Shown here in pieces: positions 12,039-20,382 of a DNA stretch of 42,526 nucleotides (position 1 is the stretch's first letter; each line of letters starts with the position of its first letter). Under the pieces are notes generated by a model. The model saw only the letters and a program-made list of their open reading frames with translations. It was not told where the DNA came from and did no database searches. The translations under genes and the position numbers were made by a program. Origin of the DNA: Deltaproteobacteria bacterium (GTDB lineage Bacteria; Myxococcota; XYA12-FULL-58-9); the NCBI GenBank assembly GCA_016218825.1, contig JACRCV010000078.1:1-42526 (forward strand). Direction: 5' to 3'.

Positions 12039-12596
12039 ATGTCCGTGGACCGATCGCCCGGGGGGCTCATTGGCTTGGTCGCGATGGGCGTCGTGATCGC
12101 CGCGCCCGCCCGCGCTGCGGCGCCGATCGAGCTCCAGGCCAAGCTGTTCTTCAAGATCGCGACCTACGACGAGAACCTTCCAGCCGAGGTCCTCAACGTC
12201 GGCGTCGCCTACCCCAGCGCCACCGCCGCCGCCCCGATCGTCAAAGCCTTTCGCGACCTCGAGAACATGAAGGTCAACGGCCGGCGCATCCAGACCATCG
12301 ACATCCCCTACAAGGTGCCCGCTGACATCGCCGCCGCCGCGACGAAGAGCCCGATCTACGGCCTGTTCGTGACCGCCGCTGCCACCGAGGCCGACGTGCG
12401 CGCGATCCGCGACCTGGCGAAGAAGCTCGGCGCGTTCACCTTCGCGCAAGACGAGCGTCACGTCGCGAGCGGCCTCACCGCCGGCGTCGCCGTCGAAGGC
12501 GACAAGCGCATCATCGTCTTGAACATGGCCGCGGCGATCGAGCAGGGTCGCAAGTACGACGGCAACTTCCTCAAAGCCTGCAAGATCATGAGGTAG
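12039..12596 (+). CDS. YfiR/HmsC-like (DUF4154) periplasmic protein
   Basis: This 185-residue secreted protein has a signal peptide (GLIGLVAMGVVIAAPARAAA, cleavage near residue 28) and a YfiR-like fold: ELQAKLFFKIATYDENLP, a strand giving LNVGVAYPS, NGRRIQTIDIP, YGLFVTAAA, and a C-terminal LNMAAAIEQGRKYD helix. In Pseudomonas, YfiR is a periplasmic repressor of the diguanylate cyclase YfiN. Here the partner four bases downstream is a chemoreceptor, which suggests the protein tunes that receptor. Only one Cys remains in the mature form, so the disulphide switch known for YfiR is probably absent. The start is uncertain, since no good ribosome site precedes 12039. Confidence 0.72.
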   Translation: MSVDRSPGGLIGLVAMGVVIAAPARAAAPIELQAKLFFKIATYDENLPAEVLNVGVAYPSATAAAPIVKAFRDLENMKVNGRRIQTIDIPYKVPADIAAAATKSPIYGLFVTAAATEADVRAIRDLAKKLGAFTFAQDERHVASGLTAGVAVEGDKRIIVLNMAAAIEQGRKYDGNFLKACKIMR

Positions 12597-12600
12597 GGCC

Positions 12601-14772
12601 GTGCACTCCGGAGCACCTTCAGGACCGGCCGCGGCACCGGTGCCGGCGAGGCGGCGCCGGGGCCTCGCCTTCTCCGAGCGTCTGAGCACGCGGGTGATGG
12701 CGCTGCAGCTCGCGGTGATCGCCGGGGCGTTGCTGTTCGCGTCCTGGCGCTTCCACCGGCAGCAGCTCGCCGAGGCCCAGATCACGCTCCGGGAGTCAGG
12801 CGACACCCTGGTGCCGTTCATGGTCCAGAGCATCAGCCCGGCCCTCGAGCTCGCGGTCGACTCGATGACCGGCGACGTCGACGATTCGATGATGCAGGAG
12901 CACATCATCGTCGCCGCCTTCGAGACCGCGAAGAAGAACCGGGATCTGGTCTACGCCGATCTCCTGCTCGCCGGCGAACGCCACGTCGGCACCTTCCTCG
13001 CTCCCGGCACCGACAAGCGCGACATCGACCGCCTGTTTCAACAGGCCGGCGACGGCCGGCCGCTGGTGATGCGGGGCGACCTCATCGGTCATCAGGGTGA
13101 CATCCTCGCCAAGGGCCAGAGCACGGCGCTCGGCACCTTGCGGGTGGCCCACTCGCTGGCGCGGGTCGAGGCGCGGGCCGAGGAGGCGCTCGCGACCACG
13201 GCCCTGATCGGCTTGCTGGTGTTCGCGGTCGCGGCGCTCTTGACGCTGGCGATGGGGCACACGCTGATCTACGCCCCCCTCAAAGGACTGCTGACCGCGG
13301 TGCAGGCCATCGCCTCCGGCAGGCTCGTGACCTCGGTGGGCTTCAAGACCGCGGGCGAGCTCGGGCTCCTCGCCGGCGAGGTCCGCGGCATGAGCGGCGC
13401 GCTCTCGGTCATTGTCTCCCGCATCCAGGAGACCGCCGCCGGTGTCACCGCGAGCGTGACGAACCTCGGCCGCCGCGCCGAGCACTCCCTCGCCGGCGCG
13501 CGGCAGCAGTCGGTGGCGCTCGACAAGATCTCGGGCGCGATGGACGAGATCGATCGGGCGTCGCGCGCCGTCGACGCCGACCTCGCGGCGCTGATGGCCG
13601 CCGCCAACCAGGTGGCCACCGACACCGCGGCGTTGAGCCAAGGGATGACGGCCCTCGAGCCACAGGTGGGCGAGTTCGCGACCTTCGTCCGCCAGACCGA
13701 CGACGCCATGCAGCGGATGGCCACCGGCGCCAGCGCCATCGCCGACAACGTCGCCGCGATGGCCGAGGCGACGGACGACGCCGCGACCACGGTGATCGAG
13801 TTCGAAGAGTCGGTGCGCTTGATCGGCGTCAACACCGACAAGGCCGCGGTGCTCTCCAAGGACGTCGAGCGCCGCGCCGACGAAGGCAAGCAGGCGGTCG
13901 ATCACAGCGTCGAGGGCATGCGCGCGGTCGCGAGCACCTTCACCGCCATCGCCCACGCCGTCGATGATCTCGGCAAGAGCGTCGACGCCATCGGCCGCGC
14001 CCTGTCGGTGATCACCGAGGTCACGCAGCGCACCCAGCTGTTGTCGCTGAACGCCTCGATCCTCGCGGCCCAGGCCGGCGAGCACGGCCGGGCGTTCGCG
14101 GTCGTCGCCGACGAGATCAAGGCGCTCTCCGCGCGCACCAGCGCGTCGACCGGTGACATCGCCCGCACCCTCGCGGCGCTGGCGCAGGGACGAGAGCGCA
14201 CCAGCGAGGCGATGGCCGCCGGCCTGAAGAGCGTCGAGGACGGCGAGAGGCTCGGCCAGAACACCCGCGACGCGATCACCGCGATCCTGGCGCTGTCGGC
14301 GCGCAGCCACTCGCAGATCGCCGAGATCGCGCGCGCCACCCAGGAGCAGATCGTCGGCAGCCGCCAGATCACCGCCGCGATCACCCGCATCGCCGAAATG
14401 GGCCGCGCCATCGGCTCGACGAGCCAGGACCAGAAGAGCGCCGCCGAGTCGGTCACCGCTCTCACCGCCCGCATGGTGACGACGCTGCAGACGGTCGAGG
14501 GCGTGATTCGCAAGGAGGTCGCGGCGAGCGTCAGGACCGCCGATCAGATCCAGCGGGTCCTGGAGATGGCGGCCTCGATCAGCCAGCAGTCGAGCAACCA
14601 GGAGGAGACCACCGCCGCCGCGGTCGCCGGGGTCGTCGAGGTGCGCGACTTCTCCGGCCAGGTGGTGTCGGTCGCCGAGACCGTGGCGGCCGAGGCCACG
14701 ACCCTGTCGGAGCAGGCCGAGAGCCTGCGCGCCAGCATCGCCCACTTCGAGGTCGACCGCAGCGACCGCTAG
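12601..14772 (+). CDS. Methyl-accepting chemotaxis protein
   Basis: This 723-residue membrane receptor starts at a GTG four bases after the YfiR-like gene, with GAGG upstream. It has a first membrane helix (about 33-52), a periplasmic sensor of about 150 residues, a second helix (about 200-222), a HAMP linker, and a long coiled-coil signalling domain. The hairpin tip (about 478-515) contains LSLNASILAAQAGEHGRAF followed by VVADEIKALS, the site that docks CheA and CheW. The fold and spacing are canonical. No che genes are in the window, so it must feed a pathway encoded elsewhere. Its stop codon TAG lies inside an intergenic repeat. Confidence 0.93.
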   Translation: MHSGAPSGPAAAPVPARRRRGLAFSERLSTRVMALQLAVIAGALLFASWRFHRQQLAEAQITLRESGDTLVPFMVQSISPALELAVDSMTGDVDDSMMQEHIIVAAFETAKKNRDLVYADLLLAGERHVGTFLAPGTDKRDIDRLFQQAGDGRPLVMRGDLIGHQGDILAKGQSTALGTLRVAHSLARVEARAEEALATTALIGLLVFAVAALLTLAMGHTLIYAPLKGLLTAVQAIASGRLVTSVGFKTAGELGLLAGEVRGMSGALSVIVSRIQETAAGVTASVTNLGRRAEHSLAGARQQSVALDKISGAMDEIDRASRAVDADLAALMAAANQVATDTAALSQGMTALEPQVGEFATFVRQTDDAMQRMATGASAIADNVAAMAEATDDAATTVIEFEESVRLIGVNTDKAAVLSKDVERRADEGKQAVDHSVEGMRAVASTFTAIAHAVDDLGKSVDAIGRALSVITEVTQRTQLLSLNASILAAQAGEHGRAFAVVADEIKALSARTSASTGDIARTLAALAQGRERTSEAMAAGLKSVEDGERLGQNTRDAITAILALSARSHSQIAEIARATQEQIVGSRQITAAITRIAEMGRAIGSTSQDQKSAAESVTALTARMVTTLQTVEGVIRKEVAASVRTADQIQRVLEMAASISQQSSNQEETTAAAVAGVVEVRDFSGQVVSVAETVAAEATTLSEQAESLRASIAHFEVDRSDR

Positions 14773-15239: not shown

Positions 15240-16664
15240 TTACTTCCAGTGCCGGTTGATGAACTCCTCCACCTCCGGGAGGCCGCCCTGCATCACCAGA
15301 TAGCCGTTGTGCGGCTCGCGCGGCGTGATCTCGTGGCTCACGGGCGCGAGCAGCCGCGCCCGGATCTCCTTCGGGTCGGAGGTCTGACCGAGCACCCAAC
15401 AGAGCTTCATGTAGGCGGTCTCGGGGAGCATGTTGTCGAGCGGGATGATGCCGAGGTCCAACAGATCGCGGCCGGTGTCGTAGACGTACATCTGCGCGTA
15501 GCCCCACAAGGTCTGCACCGTCATCACCACGGTGACGCCGGCCTCGACCGCGCGCCGCAACGCCGGGTACAGCGGCTTGTTGACGTGCCCGAGGCCGGTG
15601 CCGGCGATGACGATGCCCTTGTAGCCCTTGTCGACGAGCGCCTCGATGATGTCGGGGTTGAAGTTCGGGTAGTAGTACTGGATCGTCACCTTCTCCTCGA
15701 AGGCGGTGTTGACCACCGGCACCCGCGACGGGTCGCGACGGATGTAGTCGTCGGTCAGGTAGATGAAGTGCTCGCCGCGCTCGTTCTTCTGCGGGTGCAC
15801 GGTCGCGAGCGGCGTCGTGCCGATGGAGCGGAAGGTGCTCCGGTAGCTCGAGTGCATCTTGCGACAGCGGGTGCCGCGGTGCAGCAGATCATACTGATCC
15901 GAGGTCGGCCCGAACATGCACAGCATGACCTCGGCGATGTCGCACTCCGCCGCGGTGCGCACCGCGTTCATCAGGTTCAGCGCCGCGTCGGAGGACGGCC
16001 GGTCGGAGCTGCGCTGGCTGCCGACCAGCACGATCGGCACCGGCGACCGCTGCACCATGAACGACAGGATCGCCCCGGTGTGATGCATGGTGTCGGTGCC
16101 GTGGCCGACGACGATGCCGTCGACGCCGGCTTTGATCTCCTCGCCGATCGCCTTGGCGAGCCCGACGTACTGGCTCGGCCCCATGTTCTCCGAGAACACC
16201 CCGAAGAGCTTGTGGGTCGTGAGGTTGGCGATGTCCGCGAGCTCCGGCACCGCGCCGTAGAGCTCGCCGGGGGTAAACGCCGGGATCACCGCGCCGGTGC
16301 GATAGTCGAGGCGGCTGGCGATGGTGCCGCCGGTGCCGAGCAGGGTCACGTTCTTCTTCCCCGGATCGCGCGGAAACGCCTTCTCCGGGATCTTGTAGGT
16401 CGCCTTGCGGTAGCCGACCTCGCGCGCTTCCTTCACCCGCGACGCCAAGAGCCCGACGTTGTAGCCGGTGAACAGCTTGATGACGATGTGCAGGTCGTCG
16501 TAGGTCTCGCTGCGCGGCAGGATCACGCCGACGAACTTGGAGCCGGCGTCGTTGACGATCTCGACCTCGCTCCACACCCCGATCTGCAACGCCTCGAGCT
16601 TGGCCTTGGCGACGCCGCGATAGCCCTGGTAGACATCGGTGCGTTCAGTCGCCGTCGCCGTCAT
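15240..16664 (-). CDS. gatD: GatD, Glu-tRNA(Gln) amidotransferase subunit D (archaeal type)
   Basis: This 474-residue protein is the glutaminase subunit that supplies ammonia for converting Glu-tRNA(Gln) to Gln-tRNA(Gln). A Tudor-like N-terminal domain (about 10-100) precedes an asparaginase-type fold. The catalytic residues are visible: Thr114 in GTGGTIA, Thr190-Asp191 in GHGTDTMHHT, and Lys269 in CRKMHSSYR; SQRSSDRPSSDAALN is also GatD-typical. The Tudor domain and the RKMHSSYR context separate it from plain L-asparaginases. The ATG at 16664 overlaps the gatE stop by four bases (ATGA). GatDE is regarded as archaeal, so its presence in a bacterial gene set suggests lateral transfer. Confidence 0.93.
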   Translation of the reverse strand: MTATATERTDVYQGYRGVAKAKLEALQIGVWSEVEIVNDAGSKFVGVILPRSETYDDLHIVIKLFTGYNVGLLASRVKEAREVGYRKATYKIPEKAFPRDPGKKNVTLLGTGGTIASRLDYRTGAVIPAFTPGELYGAVPELADIANLTTHKLFGVFSENMGPSQYVGLAKAIGEEIKAGVDGIVVGHGTDTMHHTGAILSFMVQRSPVPIVLVGSQRSSDRPSSDAALNLMNAVRTAAECDIAEVMLCMFGPTSDQYDLLHRGTRCRKMHSSYRSTFRSIGTTPLATVHPQKNERGEHFIYLTDDYIRRDPSRVPVVNTAFEEKVTIQYYYPNFNPDIIEALVDKGYKGIVIAGTGLGHVNKPLYPALRRAVEAGVTVVMTVQTLWGYAQMYVYDTGRDLLDLGIIPLDNMLPETAYMKLCWVLGQTSDPKEIRARLLAPVSHEITPREPHNGYLVMQGGLPEVEEFINRHWK

Positions 16665-18577
16665 TGGGGCCCCTCCGGAGCCGTGCCAAGAACCGCTGCC
16701 GCCACCGCCTTGGCGGCGGCCTTCCCCTTGAGGGCGCGCACCGCGACACCGGTCGCCAGGCGGCGCTTTCTGTCGTCGGCCGGGTCGCCGGCACTCACAT
16801 CCGGCACCGTGAGGCGGGTGAGCTCGCGACGCCAGACGTCTTCGGGTGCGAGCGCATAACCCAGGGCCTGCATCGCGCCGGAAGCCGACAGCCCGGGCTC
16901 GGTCGCCATATGCCCGGCGACCTCGCGGATACCCTCGCGCGGCAGCTTGCCGTCGGTGTAGAGCCCGAAGATCTGCGCCCAGTCGTCGGCGCCGAGCCGG
17001 TCGGTCGGGATCCCGGCGCGCGCCAGCCACTTGGTCCGCTGCCCCATCTCGACGGCCGCGGTCTTCGGGTCGACGCCGGTCACCTTGACCACGTGCTCGA
17101 GCTGCGCCGCGCCGCCGCGGCGAATGAGGTAGGTCGCGGTCTCCTCCGGCACGCCCCAGGCGCGGTACTGCTCCAGACGCTTCCACGGCGGCGGCGGCAG
17201 ACCGGCCCTGAGCTTCGCCACCCGCTCGGCGGTCACCCGGGTGGGCGGCGAGTCGGTGTCGGGATACATCCGGTCGGGCCCGGGAAGGATGCGCTCGAAG
17301 GTGGTGTGGCCGCCGGGGAGCGACTTGCGGGTCTCTTTGGGCACGCCGAGGACGGCGTCCACGAAGCGCAGGCGGATCTCCTCGGCCGCGGTGCGACAGT
17401 CGGCCTCCTTGCCCCACACCAGGAAGAAGGCGTCGTGGTCGCCGATCTTCAACCTCTTCTTCAGCCGCTCGCGGGTCAGGTGGGCGTTGGGGAGCTCCGG
17501 CAAGCGCGCGCCGTCGACGACGTTCGGCAGCTCGTCGAGGCAGGCGATGACGCGAATGCGGCCCGAGAGCTCGTCCAAGAACGTCGTCTCCGGCTGCGTG
17601 GGGTGCGCCGCCAGATCGGCGATGCCGGCGACCTTGACGCCCATGACCTTGCCGCCGGCGTCGACCGCACGACGCACGAAGCCGAGCTCGACGTCGTGGA
17701 AGAGATCACTGACGTCCGCCACCCGAGTCTCGACGGCGCCGGGGTCCTTGAGCCCCCGGGCGTGCAGCTTGTCGCGCAAGCGCAGCAGGTTCACTTGGCG
17801 GATCGCCTCGTTGTGCACCAGCTTCACCGCGTAGGCGGCGCGCGCCACACCTTTGATCTCGACGCGGTTGCCGCCACGGACGCTCACATTGATATCCTGA
17901 CGCGCCGCGCCGATGCCGACCCGCGCGTGGCCGGTGCTGCGGGCGACCAGGCCGCACAACAAGATCGCGTCGCGGACCTCCTCGGGGGAGACGAGCTCCG
18001 GCCCGGTCACGGTCTCGGTGAGCGGCGTCCCCAGGCGATCGGTGCGGAAGGTGACCCGATGGCCGCGGTTCGCGACCTCGCGGCAGGAGTCTTCTTCCAC
18101 CGACAGGTGGGTCACGGTGAGCTTGCGCCCCTTGAAGGGGATGAAGCCGTTGACGCCGACGATCGCGGTGCGCTGAAAGCCGGTCGGGATCGAGCCGTCC
18201 AGGTACTGCTTTCGCGCGATGTGGACCTCGTCGATGATGTCCATGTGCATGAGCAGCGACAGCTCGATGGCGATGTCGATGGCGCGCTGGTTGACGAGGA
18301 ACGGCGGCGTGTCGTCCATCTCGTAGGTGCAGACGTTCTTGCCGTTCAAGAGGTAGACGATCTCCTTCTTGGTCTTGAACTCCATCAGCGCGGTGCCGTC
18401 GTACTCGCCGAGCTCGCTCAACGTCGGCCGCATGTGCCGCAGCACCTCGCCGTCGTGCGACTCGGTGTAGAGCCCGGCGGGGCAACGACAGAACAGCTTC
18501 TCGTCGGTCAAGAGCTGCTGGTGCACCTCGAGGCCGGCGACGAGCCCGACGCCCTGGTAATCGACCGCTTCTCTCAT
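16661..18577 (-). CDS. gatE: GatE, Glu-tRNA(Gln) amidotransferase subunit E (archaeal type)
   Basis: This 638-residue protein is the tRNA-binding, glutamyl-activating subunit of GatDE. The N-terminal cradle has GLEVHQQLLTDEKLFCRCP, which is the GatE form of the GatB/E signature. An AspRS-like insertion (GAD domain) sits at about 265-420, and PGPDRMYPDTDSPP near 440 is typical of archaeal GatE. A helical plus YqeY-like tail ends the protein. The length fits archaeal GatE (about 620-635) and exceeds bacterial GatB (about 480), which lacks the insertion. GAGAGCAAG precedes the ATG. It is divergent from glnS with a 92-base gap. Confidence 0.93.
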   Translation of the reverse strand: MREAVDYQGVGLVAGLEVHQQLLTDEKLFCRCPAGLYTESHDGEVLRHMRPTLSELGEYDGTALMEFKTKKEIVYLLNGKNVCTYEMDDTPPFLVNQRAIDIAIELSLLMHMDIIDEVHIARKQYLDGSIPTGFQRTAIVGVNGFIPFKGRKLTVTHLSVEEDSCREVANRGHRVTFRTDRLGTPLTETVTGPELVSPEEVRDAILLCGLVARSTGHARVGIGAARQDINVSVRGGNRVEIKGVARAAYAVKLVHNEAIRQVNLLRLRDKLHARGLKDPGAVETRVADVSDLFHDVELGFVRRAVDAGGKVMGVKVAGIADLAAHPTQPETTFLDELSGRIRVIACLDELPNVVDGARLPELPNAHLTRERLKKRLKIGDHDAFFLVWGKEADCRTAAEEIRLRFVDAVLGVPKETRKSLPGGHTTFERILPGPDRMYPDTDSPPTRVTAERVAKLRAGLPPPPWKRLEQYRAWGVPEETATYLIRRGGAAQLEHVVKVTGVDPKTAAVEMGQRTKWLARAGIPTDRLGADDWAQIFGLYTDGKLPREGIREVAGHMATEPGLSASGAMQALGYALAPEDVWRRELTRLTVPDVSAGDPADDRKRRLATGVAVRALKGKAAAKAVAAAVLGTAPEGPQ

Positions 18578-18669: not shown

Positions 18670-20382
18670 ATGACCGCTGACGCCACCCCGCGCTCCGATT
18701 TCATCCGCGACAAGATCGAGAAGGACAACGCCTCGGGAAAGTTCGGCGGCCGGGTCGCGACCCGCTTCCCGCCCGAGCCGAACGGCTACCTCCACATCGG
18801 CCACGCCAAGTCCATCTGCTTGAACTTCGGCATCGCCCGTGACTTCGGCGGCGTCTGCCACCTGCGGATGGACGACACCAACCCGACGACCGAGGACGTC
18901 GAGTACGTCGACGCCATCGTCCGCGACGTCAAGTGGCTCGGCTTCGATTGGGGCGAGCACCAGTACTTCGCCTCGGACTACTACCCCTACCTCTACGACG
19001 GCGCGGTGCGCCTCATCGAGAAGGGCCTGGCGTACGTCTGCGACCTCACCCTCGACGAGGTCCGCAAGACCCGCGGCACGATCAAAGAGGCGGGGACGCC
19101 GAGCCCCTACCGCAGCCGCAGCGTCGCCGAGAGCCTCGACCTGTTGGCGCGCATGAAGAAGGGTGAGTTCGCCGAGGGCTCGCACACCCTGCGCGCCAAG
19201 ATCGACATGGCGTCGCCGAATCTGAAGATGCGCGACCCGTTGATGTACCGCATCAAGCACGCCCATCATTACCGCACCGGCGACACCTGGCACATCTATC
19301 CGATCTACGACTGGGCCCACTGCCTGTCGGACGCCAAGGAGCGCATCACCCACTCGATCTGCACCCTGGAGTTCGAGAACAACCGCGAGCTCTACGACTG
19401 GTACCTGAACGCGGTCGACGCCCCGTGGAAGCCGGGGCAGACCGAGTTCGCGCGCCTGAACCTGAGCTACACGGTGATGAGCAAGCGCAAGCTGTTGGAG
19501 CTCGTCGAGAGCAAGCTGGTCTCCGGCTGGGACGATCCGCGGATGCCGACCTTGGCGGGCTTCCGGCGGCGCGGCTTCACCCCGGCCTCGATCCGCTCGT
19601 TCTGCGACAAGATCGGGGTGGCGCGCGCCGACAACACCGTGGACGTCGCGCTCCTCGAGTACGCGATCCGCGAGGACCTGAACACCACGGCGCCGCGGGT
19701 CATGGCGGTCTTGAAGCCGGTGAAGGTCGTCATCGACAACTACCCCGCGGATCAGTCCGAAGAGTTCGAGGCCCCCTACCTCCCCGACGACCCGACCAAG
19801 CTCGGGGCGCGCAAGGTGCCGTTTTGCCGCGAGCTCTACATCGAGCGCGACGACTTCATGGAGGTGCCGGCGAAGAAGTTCCATCGCCTGGCGCCGGGCG
19901 CCGAGGTGCGGCTGCGCTGGGCCTACCTCATCACCTGCAGGAGCGTGGTGAAGGACGCCGCGGGCGAGATCACGGAGATCCACTGCAGCTACGATCCGGC
20001 GACCCGTGGCGGCAACACCCCCGACGGCCGCAAGGTCAAGGGCACCATCCATTGGGTGTCGGCGCGGCACGCCTTCAACGCCGAGGTGCGCCTCTACGAT
20101 CGGTTGTTCAAAGACGAGAAGCCCGGCGACGCGCCCGAGGGCACGCCGCTCGCGGCGCTGCTGAACCCGCGCGCCCTCGAGGTGGTGAAAGACGCCAAGC
20201 TCGAGCCGAGCCTCGTTGCCGCCGCCGCGGGCCAGAACATCCAGTTCGAGCGCCTCGGCTACTTCTTCGTCGACCCGGTCGACTCCAAGCCGGGAAAGCC
20301 GGTGTTCAACCGCACGGTGCCGCTCAAAGACGCGTGGGCGCGGATCGTCAAGGCCGAGGGCGCGGCGGCGCCGGCCGGCTGA
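18670..20382 (+). CDS. glnS: Glutaminyl-tRNA synthetase
   Basis: This 570-residue class I synthetase charges tRNA(Gln) directly with glutamine. HIGH is at residues 42-45 ([15 protein letters not shown]) and the KMSKS-like VMSKRK is at about 269-274. The catalytic-domain segments [17 protein letters not shown] and VKWLGFDWG identify GlnRS rather than GluRS, and the C-terminal anticodon-binding beta-barrels are present. The length is close to E. coli GlnRS (554). AAGGA lies just upstream of the ATG. Together with the divergent gatED it gives the cell two routes to Gln-tRNA(Gln). Confidence 0.96.

Follow-up and report, generated by a model that had tools for sequence, protein, structure and literature searches.

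The window, as we call the whole stretch of 42,526 nt analyzed here (contig JACRCV010000078.1 of assembly GCA_016218825.1, from a Deltaproteobacteria bacterium assigned to Myxococcota), contains a pair of co-directional genes, arranged as in an operon, encoding an exported YfiR-like protein and a transmembrane methyl-accepting chemotaxis protein (MCP). With a probability of roughly two in three, we propose that this pair constitutes a front end of the YfiR-YfiN type with a chemotaxis output, in which the YfiR-like protein acts on the adjacent receptor. An earlier note made from the sequence alone had suggested a YfiR module with MCP output, and this is still the best reading in view of the CHASE8-like sensor domain of the receptor, the recurrence of the pair, and the placement of the first protein in DUF4154 via its relatives. 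According to the proposed mechanism, the exported protein, built of one alpha/beta lobe, would bind the periplasmic CHASE8/PAS-type domain of the receptor, and its binding or release would shift the HAMP domain and alter the activity of a CheA kinase, not the synthesis of c-di-GMP as in YfiN. By analogy with YfiR the sign of this action would be repression; the stimulus and the choice of CheA are likewise parts of the model that we infer, and the window's genome contains 4 CheA-type matches and 2 flagellin-like genes.

The YfiR-like (DUF4154-type) protein is encoded at 12039..12596 on the forward strand and comprises 185 aa counted from the ATG at 12039 (the mechanical ORF begins at TTG 11997). 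A signal peptide is predicted at about residues 1-26, where the sequence reads as a hydrophobic segment (6-24) followed by A-R-A/A, and the remainder (12117..12593, +) corresponds in the AlphaFold2 model to a single mature alpha/beta lobe. The junction between the genes (12588..12600, +) comprises the TAG stop codon (12594-12596) and a GAGG ribosome-binding-like motif before the GTG start of the receptor gene, with a gap of 4 bp. The receptor (12601..14772, +; 723 aa) displays a TM-periplasmic-TM-HAMP-MCP architecture, with hydrophobic segments at residues 28-46 and 201-219 that enclose the periplasmic sensor domain (12748..13185, +), a HAMP domain at residues 225-268 (13273..13404, +; 20.1 bits, under the Pfam cut-off of 25), and an MCP signaling domain (13855..14397, +; MCPsignal 103 bits, cut-off 34.6) with the hairpin tip QLLSLNASILAAQAGEHGRAFAVVADEIK. 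With two TM helices, HAMP and the signaling hairpin, it is a methyl-accepting chemotaxis protein, and both the arrangement claimed by the earlier note (an exported YfiR-like protein four bases ahead of a HAMP-containing chemoreceptor) and the chemotaxis-type output of the partner are borne out.

Upstream of the pair lies a divergent gene with an MntP match below the cut-off, and downstream a convergent ORF of 142 aa on the opposite strand. No chemotaxis gene cluster was found among the scanned neighboring genes, and a scan of the locus for promoters and terminators found none. Further along, the window contains genes of an archaeal-type Glu-tRNA(Gln) amidotransferase, gatD (15243-16664) and gatE (16664-18577) on the reverse strand, both above the NCBIfam cut-offs, adjoined by a glutaminyl-tRNA synthetase gene (18670-20379, +). 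GatDE in a bacterium is unusual, as is the presence of both routes to Gln-tRNA in one genome.

Family and fold of the periplasmic protein

Submitted as a single sequence, the window protein matches DUF4154 neither in Pfam nor in NCBIfam, and a PF13689 scan of the window's genome gave no match. Among its 70 aligned relatives from Myxococcota, 62 match DUF4154 (best E 6.1e-13), and the failure of the single sequence is thus a limit of sensitivity. Placement in DUF4154 by profile, on which the earlier reading depended, fails for the window sequence alone and holds through its relatives. A scan of genome contigs with the single window protein retrieved the locus in the sister MAG only; this sister genome, of the same genus, encodes an orthologue with 45% identity as well as other relatives, and DUF4154 matches were obtained for several of the latter. 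When 10 relatives (the window protein included) were combined into a profile, it reached classical DUF4154 proteins with E-values of 5e-6 to 9e-4 and identified about 100 loci in 64 of 195 Myxococcota genomes. No paralogues were found in the window's genome, which thus carries a single YfiR-like gene; about ten are present in the sister genome (G001), a large gap within one genus.

The AlphaFold2 model of the region 12096-12593, built from a 70-row alignment, has a mean pLDDT of 95 and matches the crystal structures of YfiR (Foldseek: E about 4e-5; VIA: Z 14.4-15.0, rmsd 2.7-3.4 over 142-146 residues). The model thus exhibits the YfiR fold, but not exclusively, as lobes of substrate-binding proteins (SBPs) score as well: with both Foldseek and VIA, single-domain and two-domain SBPs obtain scores slightly above those of YfiR. 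Profile searches of the PDB gave only chance matches with 10 rows, and with 70 rows they reported SBPs (E about 0.003-0.006) above YfiR (E 0.85). YfiR itself has been noted to resemble 3LFT and 3LKV (PMC4655355), and the YfiR and SBP readings therefore describe one fold. Because 62 of the 70 relatives match DUF4154 and the model superposes on YfiR (Z about 15), the window protein is, judging from sequence and model, a divergent DUF4154/YfiR-like protein that falls between YfiR and the single-domain binding proteins.

Periplasmic binding proteins deliver ligands to Tar or LuxQ, and the window protein could similarly be a single-domain SBP that brings a small ligand to the chemoreceptor by direct binding, such that occupancy and not sequestration sets the signal. 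Its best structural matches are a single-domain SBP from Rhodothermus marinus (6k1x; Foldseek E 5e-8, VIA Z 16.6), 3lkv and CD0873; the R. marinus protein has the same length of 185 aa, and an MCP gene is found close to its gene (PMC10805632). The ranking of the family profile in the PDB points the same way, and the window pair is indeed a single SBP-like lobe encoded beside an MCP gene. However, most relatives of the window protein match the DUF4154 profile, the partners carry a CHASE8 domain of the YfiN type, one lobe is present instead of the two that enclose the ligand in classical SBPs, and soaking gave no ligand for the R. marinus protein (PMC10805632). Taken together, we regard delivery of a small ligand as unlikely, and favor a YfiR-like regulator.

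The mature window protein contains one cysteine, C181, near the C-terminus, and retains none of the four canonical positions, in agreement with the earlier remark that the conserved YfiR cysteines are mostly gone. These four cysteines are not a requirement of the Pfam family DUF4154, and their absence argues against this protein sensing redox state in the manner of YfiR. We considered cysteine loss as a mark of rewiring and rejected it: 77 of the 92 YfiR-like relatives from Myxococcota possess 0 or 1 Cys, so the low content is general in this branch and says nothing about rewiring.

Sensor domain of the receptor

The periplasmic domain of the window receptor is probably a divergent member of the CHASE8/extracytoplasmic PAS type, with no direct Pfam match to CHASE8 (PF17152). 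The domain was identified in several partner MCPs and kinases of other YfiR-like loci, above the cut-off in L063, L065, L138 and L066. A profile made of the sensors from the window and from L013 detected the partner sensors with a score of 97.6% when the TM helices were included, and the periplasm-only profile detected the CHASE8-bearing partners with 93.8% (E 1.7e-7), compared with at most 10.6% for four controls. The structural model of the sensor (mean pLDDT 88.7) adopts an extracytoplasmic PAS/Cache fold, for which VIA reported LapD-type, WalK and CitA domains as the top matches (Z 10.5-12.1), while Foldseek reported nothing below E 0.001. According to the text of Malone et al. (PMC3375315), CitA served as the template for the PAS domain of YfiN. 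All this suggests that the periplasmic domain of the window receptor is CHASE8-like, i.e. of the YfiN sensor type.

The association of such sensors with YfiR-like proteins extends beyond the loci used for training: a phylum-wide search with the sensor profile gave 69 stronger hits outside the training rows. For 25 of these, a YfiR/DUF4154 gene is located at a distance of up to 2.5 kb, and about a dozen of these neighbors are classical DUF4154 genes. Pairwise distances between YfiR-like proteins and between sensors are correlated (r 0.72; for 13 representatives r 0.50, p 0.005), a value uncorrected for species relatedness.

The motif of YfiN proposed to bind YfiR is AAVVF in the text of Malone et al. 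(PMC3375315), where F70L is found among the YfiR-insensitive YfiN alleles. At the corresponding position partner receptors have APALDF; the window receptor has SPALEL there and that of L013 has KPAIDL, both without the conserved Phe of the YfiN motif and both followed by an insertion. Since SPALEL replaces the motif and F70L renders YfiN insensitive, the contact in the window pair must differ in detail from that in YfiN, and the known YfiR-YfiN interface is not simply conserved in the window receptor. The CHASE8-like sensors of two further MCPs have a long insertion at this position as well; their genes (L094, L101) are divergently transcribed and lie beside YfiR-like and NADH-dehydrogenase-like genes.

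Recurrence of the pair and outer-membrane neighbors

The DNA around about 100 YfiR-like relatives was read for neighboring genes. A directly adjacent, co-directional MCP gene was found at 13 of about 93 YfiR-like loci (window, L013, L017, L020, L060, L061, L062, L063, L065, L080, L125, L138, L139), with a gap of -125 to 95 bp; L013 is counted although the end of its contig cuts the MCP before the signaling domain. These pairs come from 12 genomes (the window's included), 7 genera and 6 families, so the pair does recur in other genomes. For the window's own order, 5 adjacent pairs were observed versus 0.07 expected by chance (P about 9e-9), an expectation calculated from 16 YfiR-like genes and 60 MCPsignal matches. 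The density of MCP genes around the YfiR-like genes of the fetched loci (15 up to 3 kb away, 7 farther off; p 0.04) is a weak test, given the width of the zone and the greater length of several modules, and the relevant measure of recurrence is direct adjacency.

That no more than 13 of the roughly 93 YfiR-like loci have an adjacent MCP could be taken to mean that the two genes are mere operon neighbors whose products do not act on each other. With recurrence in 7 genera, adjacency far above chance, common CHASE8 sensors and correlated divergence of the partners all speaking against it, we consider this explanation very improbable. At 19 further loci the neighbor of the YfiR-like gene is a histidine kinase. 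When the MCP label is mapped onto the phylogeny of 92 YfiR-like proteins, at least 8 changes are needed, five of the changes being forced by well-supported branches, and the hairpin tips of the MCPs differ (SILAAQAGEHGRAF in the window, SIEAARAGEHGKGF in the g58 group, ALEGSRVGEVGKGF in L020). From these two observations it follows that outputs have been repeatedly exchanged, or gained and lost, among YfiR-like loci, and a shared YfiR/CHASE8 front end on which the outputs were swapped is, as far as sequence comparison goes, well supported.

TonB-dependent receptors cluster near the YfiR-like genes (42 up to 3 kb away, 9 farther off; p 3e-7). Six of the YfiR-MCP loci (L013, L017, L060, L061, L062, L139) have such a receptor in the same gene run; plug domains were confirmed in four of the six, and in L013 the genes of the TonB-dependent receptor and the YfiR-like protein share 4 bp. 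This clustering, together with the six three-gene runs, points to an input from the outer membrane that would substitute for YfiB. We tentatively envisage a three-layer relay in Myxococcota, in which a TonB-dependent receptor would replace YfiB and capture or release the YfiR-like protein upon ligand binding, and the latter would act on a CHASE8-MCP (in sister systems, a histidine kinase). The window pair might then be the periplasmic and inner-membrane part of such a relay, its outer partner being lost or encoded elsewhere. For the window this proposal is doubtful: no TonB-dependent receptor gene lies beside the pair, and no clear orthologue of the L013 receptor was identified in the genome, where the matches are partial (31-40% identity) and fall mostly in the plug region. 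A literature search, which reached few subscription journals, found no publication that connects a TonB-dependent receptor to YfiR or DUF4154. If the triads are real relays, they would make signaling from outer-membrane receptors to chemotaxis amenable to testing.

At seven further loci (L066, L067, L068, L071, L072, L077, L090) probable outer-membrane barrel proteins of 430-545 aa are encoded directly upstream of the YfiR-like genes; the one that was scanned (L090) has no Pfam match.

Comparison with known systems

The YfiBNR system of Pseudomonas aeruginosa consists of the repressor YfiR, the diguanylate cyclase YfiN and the lipoprotein YfiB. It shares with the window pair a gene for a periplasmic DUF4154-type protein located beside that of an inner-membrane receptor with a periplasmic PAS/CHASE8-type domain and HAMP. 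The window pair differs in that an MCP domain replaces GGDEF as the output, no gene of a YfiB-like OmpA/Pal-type lipoprotein is adjacent, the YfiR-like protein lacks all four conserved cysteines, and the binding motif of the receptor is altered.

MCP outputs for Yfi systems were mentioned in one sentence by Malone et al. (2012; PMC3375315), and the YfiR front end with MCP output is thus largely anticipated and not new in kind. As regards the divergent Yfi systems, the main text of that paper presents neither examples or details of MCP outputs nor Myxococcota or TonB-dependent receptors. Our analysis turns this remark into a defined set of 13 YfiR-MCP pairs in 12 genomes, alongside which CHASE8 kinases stand under the same kind of periplasmic regulator. 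The TonB-dependent receptor beside YfiR-MCP pairs may be a new element.

According to Nam (2023), genes of single-domain SBPs often lie near MCP genes, and the function of the R. marinus SBP is unknown (PMC10805632). That protein (5z6v, 6k1x) resembles the window protein in its length, single-lobe fold and gene location, but it was not put in DUF4154 by its authors, and its partner receptor is undescribed in their paper. The present analysis links YfiR to these single-domain binding proteins of unknown function encoded near MCP genes.

Finally, the LapD-LapG system offers a parallel to the proposed scheme: a HAMP protein uses its PAS-like periplasmic domain to control a protein of the periplasm, and VIA ranked the LapD-type domain 4u64 first for the sensor model (Z 12.1). 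The differences are that LapG has protease activity and that signaling proceeds from the inside out.
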